Origin: Volutella citrinella
Taxonomy: Eukaryota > Ascomycota > Sordariomycetes > Hypocreales > Nectriaceae
DNA: 64,000 bases
Direction: 5' to 3'
Assembly: GCA_034401135.1 (NCBI GenBank)
Contig: JAWZSP010000002.1
Location: forward strand, 4,960,001-5,024,000
A program made the position numbers and the translations under genes. Positions 933 through 63,265 of this stretch are shown here, piece by piece (the stretch's first letter is position 1; each line of letters opens with the position of its first letter). The notes beneath the pieces were generated by a model. It searched no databases. It was not told the DNA's origin and worked only from the letters and a program-made list of their open reading frames with translations.

Positions 933-1423
933 GAGGCTCCAGCCCGCAGCTACGGGAAGAGGGCTTGATTGCAAAGTGTGGGGGGAGTAGGCGTCGCTTC
1001 GATGGAGCTGACAAAACGCGTCCTGCCAGCGCATAGTCTCCATATTTACTGTCATCGCGGTGGCTTTGGGGCTCGGGGATTAGGTTACGTTGGGCTGGGA
1101 ATGGTGGTGTATTTGTGCAAAATGAGGCGGCGCCTTGTGACCGACCAATGTGCAACGTTACCCCTCACCGATGAGAGCCGCACGACGAGTAACGGGCGGC
1201 TATGATGCATGCATCGGCGATGGGCTGCCCCCCCTATAGGCCGGATTGGGGTGGCGCAGGCCCCTTGTCAATGTGAACCAACAGCGTTCTTACCGATATC
1301 AGAGGAGGACCCTACCCCTCATGATCTGCCTCGTCCATTTCCATTTTGCCTTTGCGTCATTTTTCATTTTCCTCGAAGCATCTGGATTCCGCCCAGGCTC
1401 ACTCTAGCCCGAGGATCATCAAC
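933..1423. promoter_or_regulatory. Divergent promoter region with GTGGGG word at 978-983
   Basis: This is the space between the STAND-type gene (-) and the TauD-like gene (+). It carries GTGTGGGGGGA at 976-986, the leftmost copy of the word repeated through the cluster. A further GC-rich run around 1225-1260 (CCCCCC and TTGGGGTGG) is only loosely similar. Confidence 0.4.
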
Positions 1424-2981
1424 ATGGCCTCCGATATCTGCCAGCCGAGGCAGCCTGTCGCGACGTATTTGCCAACAGAGCAAGAATTTCGCGATATCAG
1501 CAACTGCGCCCATGTTTCCAAGTCATTTGTCCCACCGGGGTTCCCTCCTCAGCTGGAAGGGAGCCTTGTTTGGGACGGTGGCGCAGAGGAAACTTGCCTG
1601 GACACCTCTCCCGAGGTGGTCAAGCTTTCACCAAGTGATGTAGAGTCTATTGAAGCAGCACTCCGCCACTTTCATGCTCTCGGTGCGTCTCCGAGTGACT
1701 TGTCACCAGAGACTTTTCCTTTGCCAGCCACTCTCACAAGGAAGCTCGATGGTTTGGCCAATGCCCTCTACTCTGGGTCTGGCTACACCTTGTTGCGCGG
1801 ACTTGAACCCCTCAAGTACACTGAAGCGCAGAATTCGCTCATCTTTGCAGGGCTTGCGAGCCATGTGGCGTCTGATAGAGCCTTCCAGGACCTGAAGAAA
1901 GAAAACGTGCTATGTAAATCTGTCCTACCTGTTGTTTCTAACGATTGCCGTAAATCTAACGAGAATAATCAATAGGCCACATTGTCAATCAACGAGGTCA
2001 TACCCCGGCCTTTTCAGACAGACAAGTTGCACGTACACGAAGCCAATACTCGCGGAAATGAGCTAACATATCTGTTCCTCCAGGCTTTCCACACGGATAC
2101 CGGCGAGATTCTAGCACTATATGCGCTCAAGGCTGCCAGGAAAGGCGGCGCAATGCTGCTTTCGAGTATTGGGCACATCTACAATGACCTGGCTCAGAAC
2201 CATCCCGAGGTTTTGCAGACACTTGCAGATGATTGGGTTTTCGACATGTAAGTGACCACTCTGTTTCCTCTCCACTCGAGCGGAATCAAGCACACAGTGG
2301 CCAAGACAAGGAGACGACTTCAAGCTGACCAAACCGCATTCTTATTTCAGGCACCAAGAACTTACCAACCACCCACCGTTCACACGCCCCATCCTGCTCA
2401 CCGAGGGCGACAGAGTCACGGCTCAACTTTCGCACTACCGCCTGAAGGGCTTTGGATCGCGTCCGCGCAGTGAAGCGATACCGGCCTTGAGCGAGCGCCA
2501 GGCCCAGGCACTCGATACTTTCCAGCTGGCAGCCATGAGAAGCTGCAGAAAGCTGACAATGCTCTCCGGAGACGTTGTATTTGTCAATAATTTGGCAATA
2601 GTGCATGGCCGTGAGCCCTTCTGCGCAAATGACGAAGACTGCAGCGAAGCGGATGGTGGTAGGCATCTGCTGAGGCTGCTCCTTCGGGACCCGAAGCGGT
2701 CATGTGGTATTCCCCATGGACATTGGCAAGCCTGCTTGTGCAGAGCTACCTGTCTACCCTGCCTCTTGTTCACTTTTTGTCACCCATCAACGTCACAAGG
2801 GTCTGAGAACTACCTGAAGGCGGATTTTGACGCCACAACGCCAGGATTTCCAGCGGATTTGTGCCTGGATCGTGGAAGTCCAAGAAGATTAGTGGGCACA
2901 AGAATCACGCAAATGCCTTCAACAGATTCCCATCAGCCTCTCAGAACTATCTATTTACAGCTGTTCATTCGAAAAAGATGA
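1424..2981 (+). CDS. TauD/TfdA-like Fe(II)/2-oxoglutarate dioxygenase
   Basis: Members of this family hydroxylate or cleave small substrates using iron, 2-oxoglutarate and O2. Four exons are modelled: 1424-1913, 1976-2025, 2084-2247 and 2351-2981 (444 residues). The iron-binding HxD is H183-T-D185 in AFHTDTGE, immediately after the second splice junction, and the distal histidine is H320 in LAIVHGREPF. The downstream RHLLRLLLRDP is the usual basic segment that holds 2-oxoglutarate. Start at AACATGG (1424). After the conserved LLLRDPKRSCGIP about 70 residues without recognisable homology follow, so the true 3' end may involve an unmodelled intron or a decayed C-terminus. First enzyme of the catabolic cluster; substrate unknown. 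Confidence 0.75.
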
Positions 2982-3654
2982 GGGTGTACGCCTGGTCGGC
3001 TCGGCCTTGAGTTGGAGTTTGTGCTTGAAGCGAGGGAATCTGACCCAGCGCGCTTGGTGGGGGTTCGCTGTACAGATAGTGTTGATTCTCATGTCCCACA
3101 TCTTGCGACACACCCTTTCCAACTCCTAATGCTATCCAGGATCTTGCCTCTTTGTCCCTAGGGAGGGCAGACGGATGCACTTGAACGCCAAAGGTCCTTC
3201 CGGTCATTGATAGAGGCCATCATATCGCAGGAATCCAACAACTAACTCATCCAAGTCGACCTTGACGACACGCAGCGCTTCCGGAACAATGGTCCGAAAG
3301 TCTTCCTATCCAGGTCTGTAATAGCGCCAAATCTGCCACTTGGCGCTTATCAAGACTCATTGACTGTTACCCCGCAATCTTTGTCCGTGTGGGGTAGGTA
3401 TTTCAAGTCATGTGGCGAGAGGTGGGACAGTTCAAACGCCATCTCCACATCCTACACAGATTCATCAATAAGCAAGACTAGAGGGGTATTCTCAAGGCAC
3501 TTAGTGTATCTGTAATCATGATCGGCATCGCTCTCCCTTGACTTTTCGTTGTGCTCAAGCCGCTGCACTATGTCTTGAGACGACTTGTTAAATTAAATCA
3601 CGAAGGCCTTGTCCACAGCCATTTGCTTCCCCGTTTTACCTATCACGTCTAACA
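2982..3654. promoter_or_regulatory. Promoter of the alcohol dehydrogenase gene, GTGGGG word at 3389-3394
   Basis: This non-coding stretch contains GTGTGGGGTAGG at 3387-3398, about 260 bases upstream of the next start codon. This copy matches the extended consensus on its 3' side (GGGGTA). I see nothing else that I can name. Confidence 0.5.
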
Positions 3655-4776
3655 ATGGCAGACCCTGGACCAACAGACACTATGTTGGCAGCGGTTGTTG
3701 AGCGGTTCGGCGAACCTTACCAAATCAAGCGGATTCCACAACCCTCGCCACCAAAGGACCAGGATATTTTAGTCAGGGTTCTAGCCGCGTCGTATTGCCA
3801 TACTGATGCCGTCTTTGCATCCGGTGGATTGTCCCAAAGCTTGCCACGCATTGGTTGTCACGAGTTTGCCGGAGAGGTAGTGGAGGTTGGCCCAGACGTG
3901 CTCAGTACCCGAGGCATAACCCCCGGCGTCCGTGTTGGTGTTCCTGGCCGCGCCTATCATCCATGCGGGTCCTGCTATGAGTGTCTGAACTCTGGACCTG
4001 ATGAAATCGGCTACTCCCCATACTGTCCACTGGCAGGCAACCTAGGGCTAACCAGGGATGGCGGCTTTCAAGAGTTTTGTCTAGTCGACAGCCGCCAGGT
4101 TGTACCCTTGCCCGAGGGTTTGTCGGCATTACAAGCCGCACCGCTGATGTGCGCTGGACTCACGATATGGTCAGCATTGCACCATCCTGCAATTCAAAAC
4201 GCAGAAAGATTGGGCATCATCGGTGCTGGTGGTGGGCTTGGCCACCTCGGCATCCAGTTCGCTGCACATCTCGGCAAGAAGGTGGTAGCTATTGATGCAA
4301 GCGATACGGCTTTGGAACATATTCAACAGATAAAACGCAGCCTCGGACCTACTGGTTCAAATATCTACGTCGCAGACGCCCGAACGATGAGTATGGATGA
4401 GACGAAGGCCGCATGGAAGCAAGTCTCCGAATCATTGCCGACAGAGATTGGACTCGATGCAGTGATTCTGCTCCCCGAATCGCAGAAGGCTTTCGACACC
4501 GGCATGCAACTTCTCAGAAACCATGGCACAATGGTTGTTGTCAGTTTTCCGAAAGAGAAGCTATTGGTCAACGCTCATGATTTGGTGTTTCGTGACATCA
4601 GATTAGTCGGTAGCTTGGTGGGGAGAAACGCACAATTGAGGGAGATGCTGAATTTCACACTGCAAAACGGGATAAAGGCTCGGGTCAAAGCATATCCGTT
4701 TATTCGGCTCAATGAGCTTGTAGAGGAGAGTAAGCAGGGCAGTAGCGGAAAGCTTGTAGTAGACATGACAATTTAA
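3655..4776 (+). CDS. Zinc-dependent medium-chain alcohol dehydrogenase
   Basis: A single-exon, 373-residue MDR-family alcohol dehydrogenase that oxidises an alcohol to an aldehyde (or the reverse) with NAD(P). Catalytic zinc ligands are visible at C48 (SYCHTD) and H69 with E70 (GCHEFAGEV), with a third candidate cysteine in PLMCAGLT. The structural zinc loop has C104, C107, C110 and C124. The nucleotide-binding motif GAGGGLGHLG follows. Length is normal for the family. Its position among oxidases, esterases and decarboxylases suggests it oxidises a pathway alcohol, for example one released by an esterase; that assignment is inference. No intron is needed, unlike most neighbours. Confidence 0.88.
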   Translation: MADPGPTDTMLAAVVERFGEPYQIKRIPQPSPPKDQDILVRVLAASYCHTDAVFASGGLSQSLPRIGCHEFAGEVVEVGPDVLSTRGITPGVRVGVPGRAYHPCGSCYECLNSGPDEIGYSPYCPLAGNLGLTRDGGFQEFCLVDSRQVVPLPEGLSALQAAPLMCAGLTIWSALHHPAIQNAERLGIIGAGGGLGHLGIQFAAHLGKKVVAIDASDTALEHIQQIKRSLGPTGSNIYVADARTMSMDETKAAWKQVSESLPTEIGLDAVILLPESQKAFDTGMQLLRNHGTMVVVSFPKEKLLVNAHDLVFRDIRLVGSLVGRNAQLREMLNFTLQNGIKARVKAYPFIRLNELVEESKQGSSGKLVVDMTI

Positions 4777-4874
4777 ATACACAAATCGATGTCTAACTGG
4801 CTATCAAACACAAGGCGATGCTGGCTGGCATACTGGTAGCCTTCTGTTTCAGACTGGAGTCATAACGCTCCCCA

Positions 4875-5905
4875 CTAAACCTTCTTCCATTTCTCGTTGC
4901 CCCCCAAGTACCTAAACACCACCCTCGAGTCCAAGTCCTTGCAGTCAGGAGCCTCACTAGCAGCCGCATACACCCCTAGAGCGCTTGCACCCAACGCATT
5001 TCTCGACCCCAGTCTTCTTGCCATAGCAACTGCCAACGCAACATCCTTTCTCATCAACTGTACTCTAAATCCTCCGTTGTAACCATTGGAGGAAGGTGCC
5101 TGCGGGCATACTCTGGGAACAGGGTTGAACCTGTCACAGATGGCATTTTGTGCTGTCCCAGCACTGAACACTGATGCAAGAACATCAGCGTCAAGGCCAG
5201 CACGCATTCCCATATCCATGGCCTCACTACACGCAATTGTAATGACTCCTGACAGATAATTGTTCGACAATTTTGCCGCAAGACCCAGTGATGGGCCACC
5301 ACATGGGATTACCTTGCTTCCCATTTTAGACAGAAGTCCATCCAGCTGAGAAATGTTGGGATCCAACTTTGAGCTGCCGAGGAAGAATGCCATTGTGGCA
5401 GCAACTGCACCTATAACGCCTCCGCTCACGGGGGCATCATAGAACAACGTCTCAGGAGCTCTTTGAAACAGTTGCTCCTTCACAAAGAGATTGGTATCGG
5501 TGTCAATCGTCGAACAATCAACAAGTAGCTTGGGTGTGGGACCAGGCAGCGAAGTAATAATACCATTATCCTTGTCAAGGTATACGGCTTTGACATGGGC
5601 GCCTTCAGGCAACATGGTCAAAATCACATCCTGTTGCAAATGAAGGAGTCAGCAGAGCGGACAGCCTGACCGTGGCTTTAACTTACGCAGCTCTCAGCAA
5701 CTTCTCTGGCACTACCACACTTTACAACTGATGTTGGAAACTCCGCAACAGTTGCATCCACGACTTTGGTGACAATGTCATAGACGTAGACTTTGGAGCC
5801 AGCTGGTAGTTTCTTTATCAGATTGACCACCATGGGCTTGCCCATGGCGCCTAGGCCAACGAAGCCTATGCAGGAGGCAATTGGCTCATCAATGGTTGAA
5901 GGCAT
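4875..5905 (-). CDS. 3-hydroxyisobutyrate dehydrogenase-like beta-hydroxyacid dehydrogenase (copy 1)
   Basis: Two exons, 5905-5687 and 5630-4875 (324 residues). The Rossmann motif is GFVGLGAMGKPMV at the N-terminus. The family signature DAPVSGG is present (FYDAPVSGGVIGA), and the catalytic lysine lies in AAKLSNNYLSG. Family members oxidise or reduce beta-hydroxyacids and semialdehydes with NAD(P). The intron is GTAAGT...CAACAG. The region after NPVPR, ending in LMRKDVALA, is typical of the substrate-binding C-terminal half. The gene lies downstream of a CMD-like gene on the same strand. A paralogue is at 7510-8642, so the pathway may contain two similar reductions or a divergent pair with different substrates. 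Confidence 0.85.
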
Positions 5906-6401
5906 GGTTGCTGAGGATTTCCTGAGACTGTGTAATGAATGGACTGAATTGAGCGAGAGCGTGAAATCGGCCTTCTTATACACTATGTTACGATTGGCTC
6001 TTGGAATATGGTTATGGGGCGTTGCTCGGCGGCAGTGAGGGGGACATGGATGTGGGGTTGAAATTAGGCATCTCTGCACTTGGCGATTTGCAGATCTAAC
6101 TGACGTCGATTTGTTCATTGTGGGGAAACCCTTGCAGCGGATCATAGCAACCCCAGCCTCTCTCAATACTCTGACTCCAGCTCAGGTGCGGAAAAGATCA
6201 ATTGACACGGCCTGTGCCGACGCATCGATATGGAGTTAGCCACTAGCCCTGGTTACCCTCAACTAAGGCAATGCCGAGGAGTGGCTTGGAACAAACAAAA
6301 TGTACATCTCAAACACCAGCTAGAAAATATATTGATAAATTTTCTCCGGAGCTATTGATCAACTAATTGCTTTGCAACGTGCCCATAACGACAGTTGTCC
6401 C
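5906..6401. promoter_or_regulatory. Promoter of HIBADH-like copy 1 with two GTGGGG words
   Basis: ATGTGGGGTT at 6050-6059 and ATTGTGGGGAA at 6117-6127, both about 145-220 bases upstream of the minus-strand start at 5905. Nothing else recognised. Confidence 0.5.
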
Positions 6402-6848
6402 CTACTCCGCTTTATTGCCCAGCTCCCTCTTCCTCTCCCCTGTCTCAGCCATCTCGTTGAGTACTCTCTCAGCGATCTTCATTGCCTCTACCCCAGCTGG
6501 GACGCCACAGTAGGTAGTACAATGGAGGATAGCTTCCCTGATCTCAAGCTCTGAAAGGCCGTTGTTTCTAGCCCCACGAACATGCACGGCGAGCTCAGGG
6601 CCACGATTGAGAGCCATGAGCATGCCAAGATTTAGAAGGCTCCGCTGCTTCTTTTCCAGTCCAGGACGTGTCCAAGCGTATCCCCAGCACCATTCTGTGA
6701 CGAGCTCTTGGCCGGGTCTGGAGAATTCGGTGGAGCCAGCTGCAAGAGCTCGATCAACAAAGGCATCTCCAATAACGCTGCGGCGCACCTTAAGGCCCTC
6801 GTCAAAAAGCTGCTTGTGGAGTGCGTTGAGTTTGCTGTTGTCGCCCAT
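6402..6848 (-). CDS. Carboxymuconolactone decarboxylase-like protein, single domain
   Basis: A single-exon protein of 148 residues with the full architecture of gamma-carboxymuconolactone decarboxylase (PcaC-like, AhpD fold). The motif WCWGYAWTRPGLEKKQRSLLNLGML is close to the classic CWGxVWxRPGL block, and HCTTYCGVPAGVEAM corresponds to the active-site region near the C-terminus. In bacteria the family decarboxylates a lactone in the protocatechuate branch of the beta-ketoadipate pathway. Filamentous fungi use a different lactone route, so this may act on another ring-cleavage product or as a hydroperoxidase-like enzyme. It sits between two HIBADH-like genes and is divergent from copy 2. Confidence 0.85.
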   Translation of the reverse strand: MGDNSKLNALHKQLFDEGLKVRRSVIGDAFVDRALAAGSTEFSRPGQELVTEWCWGYAWTRPGLEKKQRSLLNLGMLMALNRGPELAVHVRGARNNGLSELEIREAILHCTTYCGVPAGVEAMKIAERVLNEMAETGERKRELGNKAE

Positions 6849-7509
6849 TGCAACGGTGGACTCAAGGTGATAAGTGTGGTGCCTTTAGGGGGGAGGTGTA
6901 GAGAAGGGAGATGAATTGTATAGCAACGAACAGAATTCGTTCGGCTGACTCAAGAATGCGGAGGGAAGGGAAACTCGGTTGTAGCTTCGAATTCTCTTGG
7001 GCAACAACAGGTCATAGTCTCTTATATGTATGTGAATGCCTGATCGGCAGAGGGGCAAGTATGTGCGGAGAACAATTTTGCAGATAAGCCTTCAGCGACC
7101 TTGGCCCTTGTGACTCTAGGTTAGCCCAGCGAAATCTTCCCGACCATGGGCGAGCACTGTGTTTGCGAAAATGAATAACGCCTGAAGAACAATCAGAGTA
7201 GCAGCAGACAACCGCCGGGGCCATCTACCCGTATACGGGCGTCGAATCACCGCCCGGTTTCCTTCAACACCCAACGACTGAGTGTGTGCACGCAATGTGG
7301 GGGGTTGCTGAAGTCCCCACCTCGATTATTACATGCGACTACTCCTAAGTGTGGGGTAAGTGTGTGTGGCGAAGGTGAGAATATGTTAAGTCAGGGATAA
7401 AAGATAAAACTATAATTTTCTTATTCGCATGTCCTGGCTCCTGTGCTTGGACCGACTCCGACTCATCTAGCCTACACAGAGAAGTAGTTAACAACTTTGG
7501 GACACGAAA
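6849..7509. promoter_or_regulatory. Divergent promoter (CMD / HIBADH-like copy 2) with three GTGGGG words
   Basis: AATGTGGGGGG at 7294-7304, its inverted partner CCCCAC at 7315-7320, and AGTGTGGGGTAA at 7348-7359. The first two form a GTGGGG...CCCCAC inverted pair 12 bases apart. All three lie within 215 bases of the plus-strand start at 7510. Confidence 0.55.
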
Positions 7510-8642
7510 ATGTCATCACAACCCGCAAACACGGTGGCCTTTATTGGTTAGAGGCCCCATCTGAATAACACCCTGTGAGGCCATAGGACAAAAGCAAGCT
7601 GATCAAGTAACGTGTTTTAGGCCTTGGCGTAATGGGATATCCAATGGCCAAGAATCTCTATTCTGGGCTGGGCTCGGAACAGACTCTCCTAGTCTGCGAT
7701 ACCAACCTAGAAGCCCTGGAAAGCTTCCAAACCAGTGCAAAGGGCAACGCAGCTATCAAAGTCGTTGCCAATGCCTTCGAAGCTGCCACGCAGGCTGTAT
7801 GTACTGTCCTGGGCTTCCGTTAGGGATATGATTGTCGCTAACATCAATAGAACACAATTATCACTATGCTGCCCGGAGCTGGGGCAGTAAAGTCAGTCTA
7901 CCTTGATCCTCAGACTGGAATTCTTGCAGGTGCTGTGGCAGCTGCAAAGGAGTCCGGCGACGCTGCCCAACGCAAACTGGTCATGGAGTGTGGAACCATC
8001 GAAACGGACTGTATCAACGCCATCGCGAGTGCATGCCAAGAAGTGTCACACAACCAGCTCTCGGACAGTCTGACTTTTGTCGATGCCCCAGTTTCTGGTG
8101 GTCCCATGGGAGCTATTGATGGCACTCTCACTTTCATGGTGGGTTGTCCGTCGTCTAGTTCGCAGGTGATCTTCCCTATTGTCAAATCGTACTTGAAGCA
8201 CATGGGCCGTCCGACTGGGATTTTCCTTTGTGGGGATGTCGGTGCAGGCACGGCATTCAAGATTATCAACAACTACCTCAGCGCTATTACTTCTCTCGCG
8301 GCATCCGAGGCTTTAAACATTGGTGTCAAGGCAGGACTTGACCCCAAGACACTCACCGACGTCATCAATGTAAGTGGTGGGCAGTGCTGGGTCACCAGCA
8401 AGAGCAACCCGGTCCCCGGTGTACAGGACAATGTTCCCAGTAGCCGAAACTATGAGGGGGGGTTCAGAGTTGAACTGTGTGCCAAGGTGTTGGGTATGGG
8501 AAGTGAACTGGCCAAGAGCGTCGGTGCCAGGACAATCCTGGACAAACCCACGCTCGAAGCTTTTGGTGAAGTGATGGAAGATGAGAGATACGCTGGAAAG
8601 GATGCAAGGGTTGTGTATAAGTGGCTAAATGAATCCAAGTAG
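7510..8642 (+). CDS. 3-hydroxyisobutyrate dehydrogenase-like beta-hydroxyacid dehydrogenase (copy 2)
   Basis: Three exons, 7510-7546, 7621-7796 and 7851-8642 (334 residues). The Rossmann motif FIGLGVMGYPMA is created across the first splice junction, which supports the short first exon. DAPVSGGPMGA and the catalytic-lysine segment FKIINNYLSAI are present. Same family and C-terminal pattern (NPVPGV...GGFRVELCAKVLGMG) as copy 1 at 4875-5905. The two are clearly diverged, so duplication is not recent. Role is presumably reduction or oxidation of a beta-hydroxyacid or semialdehyde formed after ring cleavage; this is inferred from context. Confidence 0.85.
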
Positions 8643-9187
8643 AGAAAAAATCAGGTCTCTTTGATCTTTATGCAGTTTGGCCCGAGCACATTGTGATTAA
8701 AAGTGTTGTGGTACTGAAAATGAAGCAGCAAACGTTGACAGTCAGTCACACAGGCTAGGGGCTCAGGATAAACAATCGGACAAGCCTGCCGCTAGAAATA
8801 ATGAATATTTGGTCCAAATTGTGAGCAGTTGTTTTATTCGCCTCTCAGTATCAGGCAGGCACACCAATTCCATGGCGTCTGTAGTCTTATCCACCAGCAA
8901 ATGGCTGCAGACGACTGCCGTCCCTGGCGTTGCGCCGTGGGGTTGCCCCAAGCCTTCCCCACATTCTTCAAATCTGGGGTCAAGGTTGCTGGTGCGATGG
9001 AGGGGAAATTCACGGGCCAAGTGGGGTGGATTTTAAGACAGAGGGGTCATTCAATTTTGAACTTTAGTCCCACTGTTGGATCAACGGGCCGGCAGATTTA
9101 AACACCTCTAGCTTCACCTGGAAGAAGCTCATCCTCATCAACCCAGACTACTCACCGAGACTAGAACCATCATCACGGCCAGCAATC
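8643..9187. promoter_or_regulatory. Promoter of the VAO-like oxidase gene with three GTGGGG words
   Basis: GTGGGG at 8937-8942, followed three bases later by CCCCA (inverted pair TGGGG-ttg-CCCCA); a minus-strand copy AATGTGGGGAA covering 8955-8965; and GTGGGG at 9021-9026. Short open frames here have no protein character. Confidence 0.5.
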
Positions 9188-11447: not shown

Positions 11448-12324
11448 CTATGGACCAGGTTCACCAGGAGCGGCAGAGCCAGACACCAATTCTTGAATGA
11501 TGGGAGCAGCCACATGTGCCGTATGGAGACTGAGTAGGGTCGCAATCTCTAGCACTTCAAGAATCTGCTCAGCCGTGGCCCCATAGGCGAGCGCATTCTG
11601 CATATGCACTTTAAGACCCGGAACGTAGAGGTGTGTGGCCGCAGCGTCGAAGGCGCAGTACACAAGCTCTTTGAGCTACGGACATGGCAGATTAGAAGAG
11701 CTCTGACGGGCAAACAAAGGGTAGTAGTAGTATTGCACTTACTCTGGGCTCCAAAACGCCTTTCTTCTTTGTTCCATCGCTGTCAGTTGTTTCCTCCCAA
11801 GGAACGCTTGACAGGTCCGTGTAGGCCTCGAAGAATTCAGGATCGAGGCTCAGGAAGTCCTCCCAGAAACTGTGCCAATAGCCCCTCTTCTTCGCAAATT
11901 CATCCTTGAGCCGCAGTCTGTTCTCGTCAAAAGGTTGCTTCTCATACAGGCCTTTCTCCTTCAAAACCTCGACCAGCAATGGTATTCCGATGTTGCAGGC
12001 ATGGACGCCCAAAGTGCTGGTGAGCTGAATCACTTCGTTGATTTCAGAGATGGTTGCCCCCTCCTCGAGGGCCCGTTTGACATGTGTCCGGATTCCAGGG
12101 GCGTAGAGATGGGTAGCTGCGCTATCAACCGTAAGACCGATGAGCGCCTGTTCCTTCTTGGAGAGGCCAGACTTCTGGTGCGGCACCGAGGCAAGTGTGA
12201 GAGATGCTGAGAAAAAGGTTGGATCGACGGCGAGGAGGGAATCCCACCCGGGGTGAAGGTCGCTGGCGCCAAATCGTTGAGTGAACAGCTCTCGCAGCTG
12301 TTGTCTTTTGTCGTCTAGAGCCAT
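11448..12324 (-). CDS. Two-domain carboxymuconolactone decarboxylase-like protein
   Basis: Two exons, 12324-11743 and 11675-11448 (269 residues). There are two AhpD/CMD-type domains in tandem. The first has LIGLTVDSAATHLYAPGIRTHVKRALEEGAT, and the second has CAFDAAATHLYVPGLKVHMQNALAYGAT. The paired phrases (D-A-A-T-H-L-Y-x-P-G) show an internal duplication. The intron lies within the second domain and interrupts EPR|LKELVYC in phase 0. It lacks the CWGxxWxRPGL block of the single-domain CMD protein at 6402-6848, so it belongs to a different subfamily. The catalytic function of such didomain fungal proteins is poorly known; hydrolase-like or peroxidase-like roles cannot be separated from sequence alone. 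Confidence 0.78.
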
Positions 12325-28382: not shown

Positions 28383-28714
28383 ACAAAACAAAATACTAAA
28401 GGCCACGATAAACGAGATGCTGACTGTGACTCTGCCTCTAGCGTGAACCAGCTTCATGCAGCCAGCCACCGGGCCCACCACTCAGGCCCGTCCCACTCAG
28501 AGTAATGCGTCCTGCATTTTTACTATGTTCACCTTGCCCCATGTGGGGTAACCCGTAGTGGGGAGTAAGGCTAGGTAGGACCTTGGCTACCCCTCGAGCC
28601 CCGCCCCTCTGAGCGGAGACGAACGTCAGGAATAGCCATAACATACTGTCTGTCATCGTTCTTTGGGCGCCTACAATTCTTCGAAAGCTTAACCCATCTG
28701 ATTGCGTATTCGCC
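28383..28714. promoter_or_regulatory. Promoter of carboxylesterase 2 with paired GTGGGG words
   Basis: CCCCATGTGGGG at 28537-28548 is an inverted pair of CCCCA/TGGGG around two bases, continued as GTGGGGTAA; a second GTGGGG is at 28558-28563. The start codon is about 150 bases downstream. Confidence 0.58.
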
Positions 28715-30514
28715 ATGTCTACCTTCAAACATAGCTTATTGAACACCAATCTTGAGGGTGTTGAGCAGCAAGGTGTTGTCCAATTCCGCGGCATACCCTA
28801 TGGCCGAATCCCGCAACGCTTTTCCACGGCCGAATTGGTACAAGGCTACCCGGAGCATCTGGATTGCACCAAGTTTGGGTAGGCTGCTCCTCTCCTGTGC
28901 TGCATTCCTGGCCTTGGCTGACTTGAAACAGCCCGCGATGCCCCCAGATCCCCATCGACGGCCGCCACCTGCTCCGTGTCCCGCCGACTACTCCTATCGA
29001 CCAAGAAGAGGAGGACGAACTGAAATGTACCAACTTGGACATTACTATGCCCAAGCTTGAGCCTGAGACCAAGGCTTCAAAAATGCCTGTTCTTATCTGG
29101 ATTCATGGTGCGTTGACTTGATTCTACTGTACGTAGTGACAAGGATTGTGGCTCATATGTACTGGGATTGCAGGCGGATCACAAGCAGTTTCATTTGGAC
29201 ATGGTGCTTCGGGGATTGGAGGTGAGTCTGAAAGCACAATTGTCAAGACTGTTGTTGTTTGAGCTTCTTTAAAACGCTAATACTAGCACTCAAGACATGC
29301 GAAAACTTGTCTTGGATTCCGTTGAATCTAAAAAGCCAATCATTGCCGTCTCTATCAACTATAGACTGAACGTGTTTGCCCTCGGGGACGTCAATCTGGC
29401 GTTGAACGACCAGGCCCTGGCTCTGGAATGGGTCCAGAAGCACATTATCGGGTTCGGTGGAAACCCAGTATGTTTGTTTGTTTATTTGTTGGCCACTGAC
29501 ATGTCGTGGGCTAACCGAATCGCTCTGCAGAACATGGTAACACTAGCAGGGGAGAGTGCAGGTGCGGTGTATTGCCATGCGCATCTCGTCACCAATGCTC
29601 CGGCGAGCCAGTATATCCTGGCCTCGGGTTCATTGCACCTTTCGCCGCCCCAACCGGCCACAGCGATTGAGGGTCTGCGGAATGCTGTTTCCAAGCAACT
29701 CGGGGATATCGACCCTACTCTCAGCTTGCAGAATGCCTCTGCAGCTCAGATTGTTGAGGCAATCCAACAATCTGGCCTTCAGTCGTGGCTTATTCAGTGG
29801 GAAGATCGTTTTCAAGGCTGGCAGGAGAAGACGGGAGATTGTCAGGCACTCATGATCAGCGACGTACAAAAAGAGGCAAGTTTCACACCCCAAACACTGG
29901 AAGAGCACCCACTAAGTCTGTCTCAGGCTATTATCTGGCAGGCAGGCATCTGGGCAATGGATGTGAATGAGATTGTCGGTGCGTTTGACACATCCGGCGA
30001 ATATAGCGACGAGTTGAAAAGGCTCTATCACATCTACCCCGACAGGCCTTCATCATCAAAGATTGGAGCTCTAGACTTCATCAATGACTTGAGGTTTCTA
30101 CTCCCAATTGATCGACTAGAGCGTCTTTGGGACTCGGCCAACAAGCCAGTCTATCGATTGTTGGTGGATGAGGCCAACCCTTGGCAACCTTCAAATGGAG
30201 CTCATCATGGCGTAGACTTGGTGTTCCTCTTCCAAGGGTTCGACATGGGGCCATGGCCTGCAGCCAACAAGACGGGCCACAATATGCGAGAGGCGTGGAT
30301 CAAGTTTATCAATCAAGAGAAACCCTTCACTTGCAGACCTGGAACTTGCTGCATGGCGTTTGGCCCATATGGCAGTTCCCAGCAACTGGAGGACTGGGAG
30401 CTCAGATCTCGGCGGAGGATATCCAACATGGAGCGCCTACGTGAGATGGACTTTTTAGTGTTGGATAAAGTATTTTATGCTTTGGCCGCCGGTAGGGTTA
30501 GTCTATGTAATTAG
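28715..30514 (+). CDS. Type-B carboxylesterase (copy 2)
   Basis: Five exons: 28715-28878, 28932-29107, 29174-29221, 29295-29467 and 29531-30514 (514 residues). [13 protein letters not shown] near the N-terminus, the oxyanion-hole stretch VLIWIHGGSQ (GGS rather than GGG), [12 protein letters not shown], and the nucleophile serine in [11 protein letters not shown], just after the fourth junction. The catalytic histidine is probably in [17 protein letters not shown]. No signal peptide, so intracellular. The 48-base third exon and its acceptor (29,294) were chosen because they restore frame. It is a paralogue of the esterase at 14129-15923 but clearly distinct. Confidence 0.82.
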
Positions 30515-31078
30515 AAGCTTAGAAAGAAGATGATGACTACAAATGGTATTCTTGAAGCTGTCAGTGCTAGCAGTGAGCCTAGGTCGACTCCACCAGTCGG
30601 ACAAAACACGAGCTGCATGGATGCGCCTCATCAAGCCCGCTCAAACGCGGGGTAGGGCTCTACGGCACTGCAACTACCAGCCAGTAAGACCTGGGGAATC
30701 ACGAATGCCTTTAGCTCGTCGTGGTCGGCTCGACGGTTCCCCACACTGTGACGGCACGTTTGACCCAGTGGCAAAAGCCGCCATTCACTGGGGTTTGAAC
30801 TGGCTACCCTCGTGCGGGGTCAAGATTACTCACATGATTTCTTGTGCTCAGCTACGGTGGCACAAGGGGAATTGCCACCCCTTTGCCCACTAAACCCCAC
30901 AATCATACTCCACGGGGAAGTCTTCGCGGACTAGGGCTGAACACAACCCTAGCTCTAGCCCGCAAAGACTTCCCTGTGAGCATATATATCCCATCATAGT
31001 GACACAGTTGTCAGCTGCTAGCTTGTCTTTGAACACATCTAGTGCAAATCTTGAGTGCCCGCGCTGTCCACAACGAGA
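30515..31078. promoter_or_regulatory. Promoter of the P450 gene with two GTGGGG words
   Basis: CCCCAC at 30739-30744 and 30895-30900 (GTGGGG on the minus strand). The second directly precedes a long imperfect palindrome (listed separately). Confidence 0.48.
30911..30978. repeat. Imperfect 28-base inverted repeat upstream of the P450 gene
   Basis: The left arm (30911-30938, beginning CACGGGGAAGTCTTCGCGG) and the right arm (30951-30978) are reverse complements at 24 of 28 positions by my count, separated by a 12-base loop. It could form a stable hairpin, or be a remnant of a small inverted-repeat element, or be a large operator. It starts 10 bases after a CCCCAC word. Confidence 0.65.
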
Positions 31079-33028
31079 ATGCAACCAAAGCAAGGGCTGA
31101 CCAACGCCGCCTTGGACAGGTTGCCAATCTTTCCATTGGCCCTACTCGGCCTGTTTGTTTTGTTTGTCATCCGCAACTTTGGACCTTTCTTGTCTGAGTC
31201 ATTCTCGTCATTACGAAAGATCCCCGGACCATTTGCCGCACGCTTCTCCAGGCTTTGGTACCTCTCCACGACAGCTACTGGGCAATTTCATCTCAGAAAC
31301 ATTGAACTGCACAAAAAATACGGTACGTACCTAGAGTTGGCAACAATTAACCTGCTGGGAAGAAGATGAGGGACTAATCACAGCGCCTTCAGGTCCCATC
31401 GTTCGAATCGCGCCCAAGCAATATTCCATCAACGACCCCACCGCCCTAAAGCAGATCTACGGTATAGGGAATGGATTCGACAAGGTACGCAGGTAACACA
31501 GCATTGGCATACCATTTTTCGGTGACTGATTTTGTCTCTGCTGTATAGTCTAGGTGGTACGTGGCTTCCAGCGTCCCGCATTCCACGTTCAAAGACCTCT
31601 TCACCGACCTGGATAAATCACGCCATGCAGCCAATAGGAGACTGGTCGCAAATCTGTACTCAGCAACCTCGCTGAGGAGTATGGAGCCTGCAGTTGAGGA
31701 TTGCATTATAGCATTTAAGAAGAAGCTCCGTGAGCTCTCTCGTTCAGGCACGACAATGGATGTCCAGTTCTGGATGCAATGCTACGCTTTTGATGTTATT
31801 ACTCAAATCACGGTAAGCAGTCTGGCATTTAGTACTGCATCGGAGCCATATATACTTATCGACCAACAGTTCAACCAGAGATATGGCTTCTTGGATACTG
31901 GGAGCGATGAACAGGGTATCTTTCCCAGCCTCCACCAGTACCTAAAGTACTGTGCCCTTGTGGGAATCGAGCACGAATGGCACGAAACGTTGTGGTGGGT
32001 TATGACTAAAATGCCAGCTTCTGGCATGGCCCACATTGCCGCGTTTACTGCGAAGATGGTTGCGGAAGGCAAACGGATTCTTGAGAAGATTGGACCCATC
32101 GAGGCTTCCCAGAGACAAGACTTCTTGTCAAAGACGTTTCAGCTGGCTAAGACAAACCCCGACAAGTTCCCCGAGGGTGGTATCTTCACCACGTGTATTA
32201 CCAATACAGGAGCCGGCTCTGATACTACGGCTATCTCCCTTAGTGCTGTTTTAGATTGCATTATGACGCACCCTGCTGCTCTGAAGAAGGTTGGTGGTCC
32301 TGTGAAGGATATATTGGAATGATGGGTTTTTCTGACTTTATCATCCTATAGGTGCGAGACGAGGTGGATGCCAAGTTTGAGGAACTTGGAAATCCAGAGT
32401 CCATTCCCTTTACCGACACACAAAAAATGCCCTATTTGCAGGCCTGTGTCAAGGAAGCATTGCGATTACACCCAGCTGTTGGTTTACCTTTGGCGCGTCA
32501 AGTCCCAGCTGGTGGAGCTACAATTTCCGGGACATATTTCCCAGCTGGTGTACGTGACAGCGAGCTATAGCTTCCGCTTGATTTGAGCAAGGTCCTAAGG
32601 AACACATGCTGACGCAACGGTACAGGCTACTGTCGGGGTCAACTGCTGGGTTGCGCACCGCAATGAGAGTGTCTGGGGTCCTTCAGTGGATGACTTCAGA
32701 CCTGAACGATGGTTGACCGATGACAAGCAAGCACTTTCTGTCATGGAGGCAAGCTGGATGCCCGTAAGATATTCACTGCTCTACCATGATGGAAGGTTTA
32801 AAGAGCCTGGCTGACATCGAAATCTAGTTTGGTGCCGGATCTCGGACATGCATTGGCAAAAACATCAGCTTTTTGGAGATCAACAAGCTGGTGCCAGTGC
32901 TGATTAGGAATTTCGACTTTAATATCGTGAATGCACACAAGCAAAGACATGAGAACTTTTGGCTGGTCAAGCAAGTTGACCTCTTGTTCAGTGTTTCTGA
33001 GAGACAGCTCCCACAAGAGAGGGAATAA
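31079..33028 (+). CDS. Cytochrome P450 monooxygenase
   Basis: Seven exons: 31079-31322, 31393-31484, 31549-31812, 31870-32289, 32352-32549, 32626-32763 and 32828-33028 (518 residues). One N-terminal membrane segment (LPIFPLALLGLFVLFVI) anchors it in the ER, followed by the proline-rich KIPGPFAARF. The I-helix is NTGAGSDTTAIS, ExxR is KEALRLHP, PERF-like is DFRPERW, and the heme loop is FGAGSRTCIGKNISF, with the thiolate cysteine in the last exon. The overall pattern resembles the pisatin demethylase group of fungal P450s, which act on plant phenolics by O-demethylation or hydroxylation. Substrate unknown. Confidence 0.87.
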
Positions 33029-34064
33029 GGGAGAAAGCTTGGGGCTTACTAGCGACGGTTGCAACTAAAAGGTTGCAATAAGTATGAATGATTACTAGGT
33101 CACACTCCTATCGATGCTTATGATAGTTACTTAGTTCACCTAGGGATCGCCATTGACATTGAAGGCTCCACCGCACGCCACAGCATCTATAATTGTCGGG
33201 GTAATTGCGCAGTAGCACAATTTGCCAAAGGAAAAACCACCTTGCGTCATGGCAATTCGCTTTTGGCATTTCTTGGTTCCTACAGCGAGAAACCGCGCCA
33301 TGGCAGGACATGTATTTTCTAGGTTCCAACAAGAGTCAGTCAGACGAGCCATCGGTCAAGCCAGCTAGAGACTTGTGTCAAGTCATTCCACCGTAGACAC
33401 CTGATAAATTCACCCCACGTCGCCTCTTCTGTCTCCTAAACGAACCCTTTGAGAGCAAGGCGTACTACGACGATTACCCTTTAGGGGCGCAAAGGACCCA
33501 ATAGTGTCAGCAAATAATTTCCATCGTTGATAAGAGGGACAGATTACCCCACACGCACTTTCTCGGAACTGTCATGGACATCAAAAACCCCACATACGCT
33601 AATGTGTTCTACGCAGCTGCACAGCCAAGTTGCTCCCCCACTTGGTAACCCCCTCACTCGAGTGGGCAGTCCTCTCCCTATTGGGCTAGGCATCTTTAGT
33701 AGCGCGTGAGGGAGATCTTCGATTAAGATATCTCTAGGCCTCCACGTTAATGTCGTTGGCAGTAAACTTCGAAAGAGGAGGTTAATGGATGCTTGAACCT
33801 ATGGTCATGTATTGCATTGTTCAATAACCTCATTCGATTAATGCAACTTCCAGAAGGAACCGTTATAATGTTATATAAACCCGGACTGAGTGAGGGGCTA
33901 GACACTCCCCCCACTACTGGCTATCCCCCACACACCTGGGGCTGTAATGAATGCAGCTCTTTAATAGACCAGTGCTAGCACTGGTTCCAAGTAGCCTGGG
34001 GTATAGTTTATTACTCTGTATCAATAACCGAGAAAGCCGAAACATCATATTAAAAAAAGCAGCA
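33029..34064. promoter_or_regulatory. Long promoter region of MBL hydrolase 2 with five GTGGGG words
   Basis: CCCCAC at 33413-33418, 33547-33552, 33588-33593, 33909-33914 and 33926-33931, all in the same orientation (GTGGGG on the minus strand). TTACCCCACAC at 33544-33554 matches the extended form. The first 350 bases contain short open frames with no recognisable protein. Confidence 0.52.
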
Positions 34065-35105
34065 ATGACTAGTCCGCCTGTCTACGTTACCATCTCTGCG
34101 CTCGACGGTGGACACATAACGCTGCCCGAGAGCCTGTTTGTCACAGATGCGGACCCTACGAAGAGATCAACTGTGCCATCTTTGTCGTTCTTGATTCAGC
34201 ACCCAAACAAATCAGCGACTGGCAGTAGCAAGAATGGTACCAACTTGGTGTTTGACCTTGGCGTTAAGCGTGACCTGAGCCAATATACGCCCGAGCAGCA
34301 GAAGCATGCGGCTGCTAGACAGCCCATAATCACCCACCCAGATTGTGCAGCCAGCTTGCGCAACGGAGTCTTCAATAGAAGCTCCACCCTTGCCAGCCCT
34401 CTGATGGACCCAGCCAAAGACATCGACGTGGTACTCATTAGCCACGTCCATTGGGATCATATCGGCACACCTTCAGACTTCCCTGGGGCGACTTTTGTGG
34501 TTGGCTCAGGCACACAAGATCTACTCAAGAATGGTGCAGGGCCACTATACCCAGCAACGCTGTTCAATGACGACGAACTTCCTGCCTCACGGACTGTCGA
34601 GCTTCCCCCAGCTGAAGGCGGTAGGGACGACTACGATTCCGTCTCGTATGCACCTAAACATACCTCAACACCAGTCGATTCTGTCAGTAAGCTCCCCCAA
34701 GGAGCTGCCCAATGGTCGTGGAAGCCGCTAGCCAATTTCCCAAACACTCTCGATTTTTTTGGCGACGGCAGTCTCTACGTGATTGACAGCCCAGGCCATC
34801 TTTATGGACACGTGAATCTCCTGGCTCGGGTCGCAGAAAGCCGTTATGTCTACCTGGGAGGAGACTGCTGCCATGATCCCAGAATCATGAGTGGCAAGAA
34901 GGGCATCGCCTTGTATGATGACGGCATGGGCGGCTGTCGAAGTGTCCATGTGAACACGTCAATGGCGCAGACCACGATAGAGCGCATTCAACGGTTTGCC
35001 AAAGAGAGCAATGGTGGCGGTAAGATTGAGGTGGAGGTGATTATAGCACATGACAGGACTTGGAGGGAGCACAACAAGCACCGATTCTGGCCATCTGCAC
35101 TGTAA
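34065..35105 (+). CDS. Metallo-beta-lactamase-fold hydrolase (copy 2)
   Basis: A single exon of 346 residues, starting at GCAATGACT (34065). The zinc motif HxHxDH is SHVHWDHIGTPSDFPG. FFGDGSLYVIDSPGHLYGH and YVYLGGDCCHDPRI correspond to the second and third metal-site blocks, as in copy 1 at 12606-14024. The C-terminal VEVIIAHDRTW carries the last conserved histidine and aspartate. No signal peptide. Lactone or other ester-like bond hydrolysis is the likeliest role, inferred from family and cluster. It is convergent with the MFS gene. Confidence 0.83.
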   Translation: MTSPPVYVTISALDGGHITLPESLFVTDADPTKRSTVPSLSFLIQHPNKSATGSSKNGTNLVFDLGVKRDLSQYTPEQQKHAAARQPIITHPDCAASLRNGVFNRSSTLASPLMDPAKDIDVVLISHVHWDHIGTPSDFPGATFVVGSGTQDLLKNGAGPLYPATLFNDDELPASRTVELPPAEGGRDDYDSVSYAPKHTSTPVDSVSKLPQGAAQWSWKPLANFPNTLDFFGDGSLYVIDSPGHLYGHVNLLARVAESRYVYLGGDCCHDPRIMSGKKGIALYDDGMGGCRSVHVNTSMAQTTIERIQRFAKESNGGGKIEVEVIIAHDRTWREHNKHRFWPSAL

Positions 35106-35304
35106 TAGTTACGTTTATAGCAGGCTACCTTGACAATGCATCGTTACCAGACCCAAGCTGATGGGACGAATATGGATGCTAATGGCTGAGTGAAGCATCT
35201 GTTTCTAGGCGGAGCGTGTAACCAGCCCGAGAAAAGATTGAAACGGGAGGACAGTGCTCAATTGAAGGGCAATGCTGAACCTTGCGTTACTAACCATCTA
35301 GCAT

Positions 35305-36951
35305 CTAGCCTGATTTAGCCGACTTCCAGCCCTTGGCAGAGTAAATCTTTGCCACTAGGTTATGCTTGGACCAGTTCAGTCGATATCTCTTACCAAAAAT
35401 AAAGACGATGGGGAACGTCAGACTGATGGCCGCCTGGACGACAACTAGAACCCACAGGACCTCGGCGATACCGGCTCGATAAGCCCACTGGCTGATAAAG
35501 TATCCATAGGCGTAAATGATGAGATTCTTAAAGGCCATGCTTGCTAAGAATATCTCGTTGCTCATTTCTCGGAAGGAGTCAAGTACGTAGTTTGCGGTTG
35601 AAACATAGACAAACATGGCACCAAACAATCCAAGACCGTGCAGGAATGATGTCAGGTAGACAGATTGGCCTGCTTGAGCAGCGAATCCGAAGCCAACAGC
35701 ACCAGCAAGACTGAAGAGTCCACCGGCGCCAAGCAGCAACCGATACTCTGGCTCGTAGATGCCCCCGTTTCGACGACTACACCATCTCACAATGCCATCG
35801 TTAGCGAAGGCGCAAATGCCAGCGGCTAGGAGGCCTCCAATCAAGGGTCCGACCGAGAGATAGCCAATTCTGCTCGCATCAAACAAGTAGGGCGGCGCCG
35901 CAAAGACTTGGGCAAGCAGGATGGAGATTGTGACAATGACACTGAGATAGTATCCCGTCATGATCACCATCCACAAGACGGCCACGTTCATGCATGTGAG
36001 AAAGGGGCCAAAAACCAGGAGCAAGAGGCTGTCGTCCGAGTATTTGCCCGACACAATGGCCAAGCTTTGCCAAAAACTCTTCTTTTTGCCACTAATTCCC
36101 CTGCGGGCAGTGGCCTCCTCAACCTGCTCCACAGTTGATTCTGGGTTCTCCTTGGCGTTCTCACCCTCGGCAACAATATGCGAGACCTCAGACGCGTATG
36201 TGCGGTTGAATTGAGTCTCTGGCACAAAGAGGAACTGGAGCAGCAGCTGAATACCACCAAAGAGAGTTGAGAGATGAAAGAGGTATTTCCAACCGAGTGA
36301 CATGGTTATGGGGCCACAAATAACTGAGCTGAAGTTGGACACACCGCCGATGATAAAGTTGACGACGGAGGAGTAAAGACCGCGCTCATGGACGAAATAC
36401 AAATCGCCAATCATGGCAAAGACGAGAGATTCGTAAGCACTGCTGGAGAGTCCCTGAATCACCCTTGCTACCAGGAGCTGATTGAAGTCGGAGGCAGTAG
36501 ATCCGATGATGTTGCCCACGATGCCTATCAGAGTGGAGAATAGGAAGACTGGTCTCTTGCCCCATCTGGTTGCCGTGGCATTGACCAAGGCAATAGAGGC
36601 CGCAACGACGAGCAGCTGGTAGCCATTGGCCTGCACAATAGCAGGCACGGGAACATCAAGCTCCATGGCAATTTGGACCAATCCAGCGTTGAGCAAGGGA
36701 GGGATCGTAGCGGCCCAAATGCATGTCCCAAAACATGTAATGGCAATCATGGCCAGCTTTTTGCCGGGAGAGAAGTTGAGTGGATCATTGGCGTCTTCCG
36801 AGGGCTGCGGGACGAGGAGAATGTTCTGATGCTTGCCGCCGGCGTGCTTGAATCCTGCAGCAGCATCGTCCTGGGCAACATCCGTGTCCAAGACGACTGT
36901 GCCGGGGACATTGGAGCCAGAGCGAGGCTCGAGGATGCCGAGAAAGCCCAT
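35305..36951 (-). CDS. MFS transporter
   Basis: A single-exon, 548-residue membrane protein with roughly 12 hydrophobic segments. It starts at MGFLGILEPRSGSNVPG. A hydrophilic N-terminal tail ending DANDPLNFSPGKKLAMIAITCF precedes the first membrane helix; this PxNW/F-x-xxKK pattern is common in fungal drug:H+ antiporter-1 family members. The loop NATATRWGKRPVFL is the MFS motif A region. A long cytosolic loop (EGENAKENPESTVEQVEEATARR) separates the two halves. As the last member of the cluster, with GTGGGG words in its promoter, it may import the substrate or export a toxic intermediate. Confidence 0.85.
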   Translation of the reverse strand: MGFLGILEPRSGSNVPGTVVLDTDVAQDDAAAGFKHAGGKHQNILLVPQPSEDANDPLNFSPGKKLAMIAITCFGTCIWAATIPPLLNAGLVQIAMELDVPVPAIVQANGYQLLVVAASIALVNATATRWGKRPVFLFSTLIGIVGNIIGSTASDFNQLLVARVIQGLSSSAYESLVFAMIGDLYFVHERGLYSSVVNFIIGGVSNFSSVICGPITMSLGWKYLFHLSTLFGGIQLLLQFLFVPETQFNRTYASEVSHIVAEGENAKENPESTVEQVEEATARRGISGKKKSFWQSLAIVSGKYSDDSLLLLVFGPFLTCMNVAVLWMVIMTGYYLSVIVTISILLAQVFAAPPYLFDASRIGYLSVGPLIGGLLAAGICAFANDGIVRWCSRRNGGIYEPEYRLLLGAGGLFSLAGAVGFGFAAQAGQSVYLTSFLHGLGLFGAMFVYVSTANYVLDSFREMSNEIFLASMAFKNLIIYAYGYFISQWAYRAGIAEVLWVLVVVQAAISLTFPIVFIFGKRYRLNWSKHNLVAKIYSAKGWKSAKSG

Positions 36952-37789
36952 GGTTGGCGCGCGACACGTGAATAAGCGTGAACTAAAGATGGGTTTGGCA
37001 GAGAGAGATTTGCGGATGAGACGTGAGTGAAAGCTGTGTGGCGATGCTGCAGAGAAACCACAAGTGCAATAGCAGACTTTATACAAGACTTGCACCTGCA
37101 GCATCCATGTCGGTTCTCTACCGTTCAATGCAATCCGGCATGATCCCTCATTGCCCCACCATGTTCCAACTCAAGCTGAACCCCCCTCGCCAGCACTAAC
37201 AAGAGTAACTACTTATAGTTTGGGACTAGAGGCACAGGCTACCAATCGTGATTACCTACCAATTGTGGGGAAGGGGGGGGGATCTGGGGTAATGTGGGGA
37301 AGCCTAGATTGCCATTTGGTTGAGTGAGGGATGGACGATAGTGTCAGGCATCTTGCGGGCTCGTGGGTGTGTGTTGGACGGGCTTGTGGGGGCTCGGTCT
37401 CGAGCTCGGGCTTGGGTGGGCTTGGTTGGGTGCGGTGCGGCCAGGAAGTTGGAGCTCGCAGGACGGAGGGAAGCAGCCGCATTTTTATATATATTAGGCC
37501 AATTGAGGTCAACTGGCAATACCAGGCCCAAGACCTGGGAGGAGGTGAACAACATTGACTTGGTCAACAATATCGGCTACTGGGACAGCAAGGGACGATG
37601 TATTTAAAACGCGCTATGCACAGCTAATATATACGACGAATAGACTACTACATGTCGACTCTTCGACATCCCTAGAGCCCAACTTCATTTCGTTGCCGAC
37701 TGGTTCGATGACGGTCGTCGTACTCATCAAAAACCGCCGTATCAGTTGACAAAAAAGGCTGCATCTGTGGTCGTCTCAGGGTCTGGTGT
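36952..37789. promoter_or_regulatory. MFS promoter with three GTGGGG words; right boundary of the motif-bearing region
   Basis: CCCCAC at 37154-37159, ATTGTGGGGAA (core 37265-37270) and AATGTGGGGAA (core 37294-37299). These are the last copies I see when reading rightward. A G-rich and GGCTTGGG-type stretch (37,330-37,440) follows; its open frames have no protein-like character. Confidence 0.55.
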
Positions 37790-63264: not shown

Positions 63265-63265
63265 G

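Follow-up and report, generated by a model that had tools for sequence, protein, structure and literature searches.

GTGGGG as the candidate operator word of a probable HxnR-like C2H2 regulon in paralogous catabolic clusters of Volutella citrinella

The subject of this analysis is a 64,000-nucleotide stretch of the Volutella citrinella genome (hereafter the window; C2:4,960,001-5,024,000, the genome comprising 26 contigs and 45.1 Mb), the left part of which carries a catabolic gene cluster, cluster A, with the hexamer GTGGGG in most of its promoters. Judged by promoter statistics, GTGGGG is a real operator word, and we put at roughly three in four the probability that it serves as operator for a catabolic regulon spread over several loci, bound by g13, a C2H2 protein encoded within cluster A, and by the g13 paralogues of sister clusters; binding, activation, inducer and substrate are what we infer. 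The observed basis consists of the enrichment of the word, its specificity profile, its flanks, its recurrence in the sister clusters, and the architecture of the factor. The other loci are designated cluster B (C4:660-690 kb), cluster C (C5:405-425 kb) and cluster D (C8:91-112 kb).

Abundance and specificity of GTGGGG in cluster A

In the whole window, GTGGGG or its complement CCCCAC occurs 60 times, as compared with a mean of 36.6 in shuffled sequence (standard deviation 6.1, maximum 51; none of 100 shuffles reached 60), and 53 of these copies lie left of 37.5 kb. When open reading frames (ORFs) of at least 150 aa were masked, the non-coding DNA of cluster A (15.0 kb of positions 1-37,500) contained 37 copies, or 24.6 per 10 kb, which bears out the count of about 35 intergenic copies made by eye in the first-pass annotation. 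Five control sets gave 3.4 to 7.5 copies per 10 kb, among them the coding part of the cluster stretch (7.1), the right part of the window (3.4), eight other 10-kb stretches (7.5) and the surroundings of eight sugar-transporter genes (7.5); the masked coding DNA of the cluster held 16 further copies, at background density. The same annotation had noticed no copy right of 37.3 kb, which needs correction, as eight are present there: the one at 37386 still lies within the promoter gap of the major facilitator superfamily (MFS) gene, and the seven beyond 37.5 kb, three of them non-coding, occur at background density.

The k-mer comparison with background that had been suggested together with these counts was carried out as an unprompted scan, in which GTGGGG ranked first of 2080 hexamers (37 copies vs 54 in 87 kb of background; 3.9-fold, p 1.6e-9, Bonferroni-corrected 3.3e-6). 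The first heptamer was TGTGGGG (22 vs 14, 8.8-fold) and the first octamer ATGTGGGG. The fold enrichment stayed at 3.4-4.5 across mask lengths of 80, 100, 150 and 200 (p 5e-5 to 1e-9). The background sets omit L033 (13% G+C, GC), L022 (C3:410-420 kb), and L009-L016, which were picked through the ten-mer ATGTGGGGTA.

Hand-drawn promoter gaps (10.4 kb in total) held 39 copies, and 13 of the 15 gaps were hit, in line with the earlier statement that the word occurs in nearly every promoter of the cluster. Dinucleotide shuffles of the gaps yielded a mean of 7.5 and a maximum of 16 copies, with none of 1000 reaching 39, and a mean of 5.8 gaps hit, with 1 of 1000 reaching 13. GTGGGG led the ranking of words in the gaps by copies; by gaps hit, it was tied with the overlapping CCCACA. 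The two promoter gaps lacking GTGGGG are those of TauD/g1 and of the zinc-finger gene g13 itself. No complete GTGGGG was found inside the four 3'-to-3' gaps, which is weak evidence as these gaps are short and about 0.5 copies would be expected in all of them; the copy at 4870-4875 runs over a stop codon.

In clusters A and B, all 18 single-base variants of GTGGGG were flat (0.6-1.6-fold) as compared with 3.5-fold for GTGGGG itself, and of the three GHGGGG forms only GTGGGG was enriched (GAGGGG 1.1-fold, GCGGGG 1.3-fold). The heptamer TGGGGTA was enriched 21-fold over both clusters (25 vs 3). Shared flanks had been named before any testing, and they were recovered: in cluster A, T stands at -1 in 22/37 sites (background 14/54) and A at +2 in 19/37 (8/54), and the two occur jointly in 16/37 sites as compared with 2/54 (p 4e-6). 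At the C4 sites, A at -2 and A at +2 recur, and 10 of the 15 non-coding TGGGGTA copies there lie outside the five ATGTGGGGTA copies of that locus. The preferred operator form may be WTGTGGGGTA; the full ten-mer ATGTGGGGTA has only three copies in cluster A. Palindromic or repeated half-sites were rejected as a general rule, as CCCC or a second GGGG downstream was not significantly above background, although single cases exist.

A Pfam scan, which covered part of the ORFs and exons, placed the catabolic gene set left of about 37.7 kb and genes with PAN, 2EXR, HNH and HET domains to its right. The introns of the window, and domains restricted to fungi, agree with its fungal origin. The genes of cluster A are as follows (limits approximate and ORF-based; family assignments from Pfam unless another source is given).

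1325..2978 (+), TauD-family dioxygenase; promoter gap 1056-1345
3592..4773 (+), zinc-type alcohol dehydrogenase (ADH)
4878..6181 (-), ORF of 3-hydroxyisobutyrate-dehydrogenase-like enzyme 1 (HIBDH1), start judged near 5890, ORF above 5890 domain-free
6405..6884 (-), carboxymuconolactone-decarboxylase-like protein 1 (CMD1)
7851..8639 (+), 3-hydroxyisobutyrate-dehydrogenase-like enzyme 2 (HIBDH2)
9958..11025 (+), g8, no Pfam or NCBIfam family; paralogue in the C8 cluster (64% over 166 aa)
11695..12417 (-), carboxymuconolactone-decarboxylase-like protein 2 (CMD2)
12588..13875 (+), g10, no Pfam or NCBIfam family
14132..15743 (-), carboxylesterase 1; paralogue in the C4 cluster (67% over 160 aa)
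16673..18221 (+), flavin adenine dinucleotide (FAD) monooxygenase; best solved-structure match PnpA (first exon only as query); paralogue in the C4 cluster
18874..21659 (+), g13, candidate regulator with two N-terminal C2H2 fingers and Fungal_trans (PF04082), from finger scan, spliced model and Pfam
22728..23861 (+), homogentisate 1,2-dioxygenase-like enzyme (Pfam and solved-structure match)
24538..26819 (+), Zn2Cys6 regulator, the second regulator of the cluster; zinc cluster at 24585, PF04082 below cut-off; paralogue at C5
27225..28379 (+), iron alcohol dehydrogenase family, maleylacetate-reductase-like (Pfam; best solved-structure match maleylacetate reductase); paralogue in the C4 cluster
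29273..30511 (+), carboxylesterase 2
31055..33009 (+), cytochrome P450; paralogue in the C8 cluster (most exons 62-85%)
33951..35102 (+), metallo-beta-lactamase-fold (MBL-fold) enzyme, weakly lactonase-like (Pfam/NCBIfam)
35308..37170 (-), MFS transporter; paralogue in the C8 cluster

The promoter gaps that contain GTGGGG, with their sites, are the following.

2982..3654, ADH: 3057, 3389
5890..6404, HIBDH1: 6052, 6120
6885..7850, divergent gap of CMD1 and HIBDH2: 7297, 7315(-), 7351
8643..10026, g8: 8937, 8957(-), 9021, 9261(-), 9519(-)
12370..12605, divergent gap of CMD2 and g10: 12468, 12477, 12535(-)
15744..16672, divergent gap of carboxylesterase and FAD monooxygenase: 16035, 16103, 16399(-), 16466
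21700..22340, homogentisate dioxygenase-like gene: 22147(-), 22178 (ATGTGGGGTA)
23865..24585, Zn2Cys6 gene: 23896, 24284(-), 24320(-)
26823..27233, maleylacetate-reductase-like gene: 27089 (ATGTGGGGTA)
28383..29296, carboxylesterase 2: 28543 (ATGTGGGGTA), 28558
30515..31054, P450, left limit uncertain: 30739(-), 30895(-)
33030..33950, MBL-fold gene: 33413, 33547, 33588, 33636, 33909, 33926, all (-)
37129..37700, MFS gene: 37154(-), 37265, 37294, 37386

The six copies in front of the MBL-fold gene are the most of any gap; models of acyl-homoserine lactone (AHL) lactonase and 4-pyridoxolactonase score 45 and 30 bits, respectively, against this enzyme (33951-35102, +), far below their cut-offs. 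On its right, the cluster is adjoined by a 1077-aa open frame with PAN domains (37793-41023, -), beyond which come 2EXR and HNH genes and one with a HET domain (57438-59312) in what looks like a variable region, and the last part of the window (62001-64000) has a GC of only 0.36, as in an AT-rich, possibly repeat-mutated block.

The candidate regulator and the sister clusters

The gene at 18874-21659, which the first-pass annotation left unmentioned, combines C2H2 fingers with a Fungal_trans domain inside the cluster. Its model comprises five exons (18874-19055, 19114-20263, 20308-20457, 20524-21388 and 21445-21659; 853 aa as modelled), the splice sites of which were picked by eye. Searched exon by exon, g13 gave no Pfam match; the spliced model matched PF04082 (E 5.7e-14) and zf-C2H2 (8e-5). 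The protein starts with VCQHCGTVFKRREHCIRHERSHTREKPFACQYCHKRYSRK, after which an intron splits finger 2, and continues with DLVTRHERTLH, the contact positions of the two fingers being R-EH--R and R-DL--R. Under the zinc-finger code, the residues R, H, R of finger 1 would contact GGG and the residues R, L, R of finger 2 would contact G-T-G, so that 5'-GTGGGG is the word predicted for g13. CreA has a glutamate where g13 has a leucine, which would explain why GCGGGG is not used. A protein comparison listed 27 relatives of g13 from 7992 scored candidates, some of them animal multi-finger proteins. Ten relatives were read, several of them with retained introns: nine have R-EH--R in finger 1 (one is without finger 1) and nine have D-L--R in finger 2 (one has D-Q).

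The closest paralogues of g13 in the genome are located at C8:91,128-92,628 (cluster D) and C4:679,571-680,968 (cluster B). Both show FKRSEH--RH in finger 1, an intron at the same place and then DLVTRHERTLH, with identical contacts in both fingers. Cluster D was found through the g13 protein, not through the word; the gap upstream of its regulator gene, which is common to a P450 gene, contains TATGTGGGGTAG and three more GTGGGG. Four further C2H2 loci, inspected together with 1.5 kb on either side, contained no ATGTGGGGTA.

Genome-wide, ATGTGGGGTA occurs in 52 copies as compared with 28 for a reversed-letter control. Pairs within 20 kb number 16, vs a mean of 1.17 under random placement (maximum 6; none of 5000 placements reached 16), and the 28 control copies form no close pair. 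Cluster A accounts for three of the 16 close pairs, while C8:93-112 kb, C5:408-419 kb and C3:416-419 kb have a single pair apiece. Cluster B encodes a carboxylesterase, an FAD monooxygenase, a maleylacetate-reductase-like and an HIBDH-like enzyme, all paralogues of cluster A genes (about 35-70% in main ORF matches), together with P450s, an alpha/beta hydrolase, GCV_T and hydroxyquinol 1,2-dioxygenase. Cluster D carries paralogues of the P450, MFS and g8 genes of cluster A as well as CMD and two HIBDH genes; within the 9.0 kb read, two promoter gaps were tested and each contains GTGGGG (4 and 3 copies; 0.9 and 0.7 expected). In cluster C, only the Zn2Cys6 gene and the finger region match cluster A by tblastn, and its genes include intradiol dioxygenase, P450, aldehyde dehydrogenase and MFS. 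The earlier proposal of a single regulon at a single locus thus stands for the one word across nearly all promoters of the cluster, and does not stand for the single locus, as there are sister clusters at C4 and C8.

Of the paralogues for enzymes and transporters, 6/6 pairs had the word in both promoters (A/B: carboxylesterase, monooxygenase, maleylacetate reductase and HIBDH; A/D: P450 and MFS). A blastn comparison between the clusters gave nine matches, all on gene bodies.

Some further loci came to view. At C5:414 kb (L023:8989-9271, -), near the intradiol dioxygenase gene, a pair of C2H2 fingers, the first with R-EH--R, precedes a Zn2Cys6 domain by about 280 bp; this is probably one dual DNA-binding regulator. 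The AT-rich stretch C3:410-420 kb (L022; GC 0.36) has two ATGTGGGGTA 3 kb apart, and no Pfam match was obtained in the four ORFs scanned there. Four ATGTGGGGWA within 20 kb at C1:144,372-164,361 may mark a further member locus. Elsewhere on C3, L033 (1,500,001-1,510,000) has a GC of 0.13 over 10 kb and is perhaps centromeric.

Alternative explanations for the word

One alternative is that GTGGGG represents CreA/Mig1 sites of carbon catabolite repression, the genes being only glucose-repressed. GTGGGG fits the consensus SYGGRG as one of its eight words, a study of gallic acid and CreA in A. flavus reportedly mentions it (PMC6071284), and CreA typically acts on catabolic genes. The seven other SYGGRG words were, however, at background, with 3.3-10.0 copies per 10 kb in cluster A vs 4.8-8.8 in the eight other stretches (GCGGGG 7.3 vs 6.3, CTGGGG 10.0 vs 8.8, CCGGGG 6.7 vs 4.8, GTGGAG 9.3 vs 7.3, GCGGAG 4.7 vs 5.8, CTGGAG 4.7 vs 6.0 and CCGGAG 3.3 vs 5.3), unlike GTGGGG itself (24.6 vs 7.5), and the eight sugar-transporter loci showed no excess of GTGGGG. 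The lack of enrichment of the seven other words makes plain glucose repression unlikely, and CreA as the sole cause was rejected on these words and on the sugar-transporter loci. GTGGGG accounts for 52/316 of ATSYGGGGTA genome-wide and for 3/4 in cluster A, although these numbers are small. CreA fingers would read the same GGG triplet; the 3' flank TA lies outside the CreA consensus. Altogether, we regard CreA sites as a distinctly improbable source of the excess. A compositional or chance excess with no regulator at all has next to no probability, for although G/C runs occur in fungal promoters, none of the 1000 dinucleotide shuffles matched the gap count, the single-base variants were flat, and the word ranked first among 2080.

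Zn2Cys6 factors usually read CGG triplets. That the Zn2Cys6 protein (24538-26819) is the binder appears very unlikely: its gene lies in the cluster and the C5 locus of its paralogue also has two ATGTGGGGTA, but none of 80 CGG-type spaced pairs tested was enriched in the cluster (best p 0.2), on which count Zn2Cys6 dyads were rejected, and the strongly enriched C4 cluster showed no Zn2Cys6 pattern in 50 kb, where a motif interrupted by an intron could escape notice. We also consider unlikely, if somewhat less so than the CreA explanation, that the word is bound by a general C2H2 factor of the ADR1/AmdX type from another locus, the C2H2 gene of the cluster acting at other sites. The reversed-letter control, with 28 copies vs 52, indicates that some half of the ten-mers may have arisen by chance or belong to other genes; however, the strongest enrichment is in loci carrying g13 paralogues, a site is present in the gap preceding the C8 paralogue, and no ATGTGGGGTA lies in the 1.5-kb flanks of the finger region at C7:1,712,883-1,714,484, the location of an ADR1-like two-finger candidate.

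Several observations weigh against g13 and its paralogues as the binders of a shared word. That C7 candidate, a 1160-aa open frame, has the same contacts R-EH--R and R-DL--R. The finger-to-base reading of g13 is presumed from the general code, and the Fungal_trans regions of the g13 paralogues are only 32-44% alike. The gaps of the regulator genes themselves hold no copy in A, one without the TA flank in B and four in D; autoregulation is thus not general, and the regulator pairs break the pattern of the word in both promoters. The six pairs are partly dependent, as the carboxylesterase and monooxygenase of cluster A share a gap and the P450 of cluster D shares that of the regulator. Ten of the 16 close pairs lie at C4:666-684 kb alone; that locus was selected via its five ATGTGGGGTA copies, so that its enrichment is partly circular and counts for less, and T at -1 was not significant there (10/26, p 0.19). 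In cluster C alone, with 11 non-coding sites in 10.1 kb, no word was significant after correction, and cluster C (C5) was discarded as independent confirmation for being too weak.

Relation to known regulators and meaning of the regulon

Our preferred explanation remains an operator read by g13 and its sister-cluster paralogues, in which finger 2 would lie on the 5' triplet GTG and finger 1 on the 3' triplet GGG. A metabolite of the pathway may activate the factor by way of the Fungal_trans domain, as with HxnR and nicotinate, and the factor would then jointly induce the esterases, monooxygenase, dioxygenases, maleylacetate reductase, dehydrogenases and transporter.

By analogy, HxnR of Aspergillus nidulans is the closest known case. 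Passages on the nicotinate pathway describe HxnR as a Cys2His2 plus PF04082 pathway regulator of 865 aa with two N-terminal fingers, and present it as unusual among fungal pathway regulators, which are generally Zn2Cys6 (PMC5746545). Parts of a later account give putative sites 5'GHGGGG, predicted in silico from the fingers, in all HxnR-regulated promoters but that of hxnN, for a regulon that spans three clusters, and state that HxnR sites were not experimentally determined (PMC8478523). The likeness extends to two N-terminal C2H2 fingers and PF04082 in one protein (853 aa in the g13 model vs 865 aa), to a regulator gene among the genes proposed as its targets, with the C4 and C8 paralogues likewise beside paralogous enzymes, and to GHGGGG words in the target promoters (here GTGGGG, in 13/15 gaps). 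In contrast to HxnR, only the T form is enriched here, not GAGGGG or GCGGGG, there are several paralogous factors, each in its own cluster, and the word was derived from promoter statistics rather than from finger prediction. No molybdenum hydroxylase family or nicotinate enzymes were seen among the cluster A ORFs scanned, which covered part of the exons.

Other fungal systems share single features. ADR1 of yeast has the contact residues R-EH--R / R-DL--R and the word ACCCCAC. Its two-finger construct (2ADR; 2adr_A) aligns with the g13 fingers (residues 19-73, 53.8 bits, E 1.7e-13) as the 25th of the structure matches; many C2H2 proteins match, and animal multi-finger proteins score higher in total. 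The similarity covers both g13 fingers, the comparison being limited to the finger region, and ADR1 is described, in passages of PMC2527678, as a glucose-derepression activator. The likeness to CreA/Mig1 is that GTGGGG fits the consensus, and the difference that the seven other consensus words are not enriched. The FDB1/FDB2 benzoxazolinone clusters of Fusarium are likewise paralogous, serve detoxification and comprise an MBL-fold enzyme, MFS, flavin hydroxylase and regulator. Parts of the paper on them report an amidase, a dienelactone hydrolase and MBL, with a Zn2Cys6 regulator for FDB1, and 'C2H2' is absent from its main text (PMC4726666). Among the cluster A ORFs scanned, the FDB-type amidase and dienelactone hydrolase were not seen, only the MBL-fold enzyme. 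Another C2H2 cluster factor, GipA, is given a different word, TNNVMGCCNC, in passages of PMC4006717. Among the literature matches listed, all open-licence papers, there was no report of GTGGGG for an aromatic-catabolic C2H2 regulon.

Taken together, these comparisons suggest that an HxnR-like C2H2 regulon for aromatic catabolism across several paralogous clusters is most likely. A bolder possibility, which we advance tentatively and hold to be somewhat less than even, is that an HxnR-like regulator and its cluster were duplicated repeatedly in one genome, the enzymes and factors diverging (32-44% in Fungal_trans) while finger contacts and word stayed fixed; unlinked aromatic-degradation clusters would then form one cross-wired super-regulon with several inducers. 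Here, a word that emerged from promoter statistics agrees with one predicted from zinc fingers, in clusters whose kind of substrate differs from that of HxnR, and the extended form WTGTGGGGTA and the sister clusters are available for comparison. The candidate operator-regulator pair is directly testable, and the word may serve as a marker by which additional regulon members can be located.

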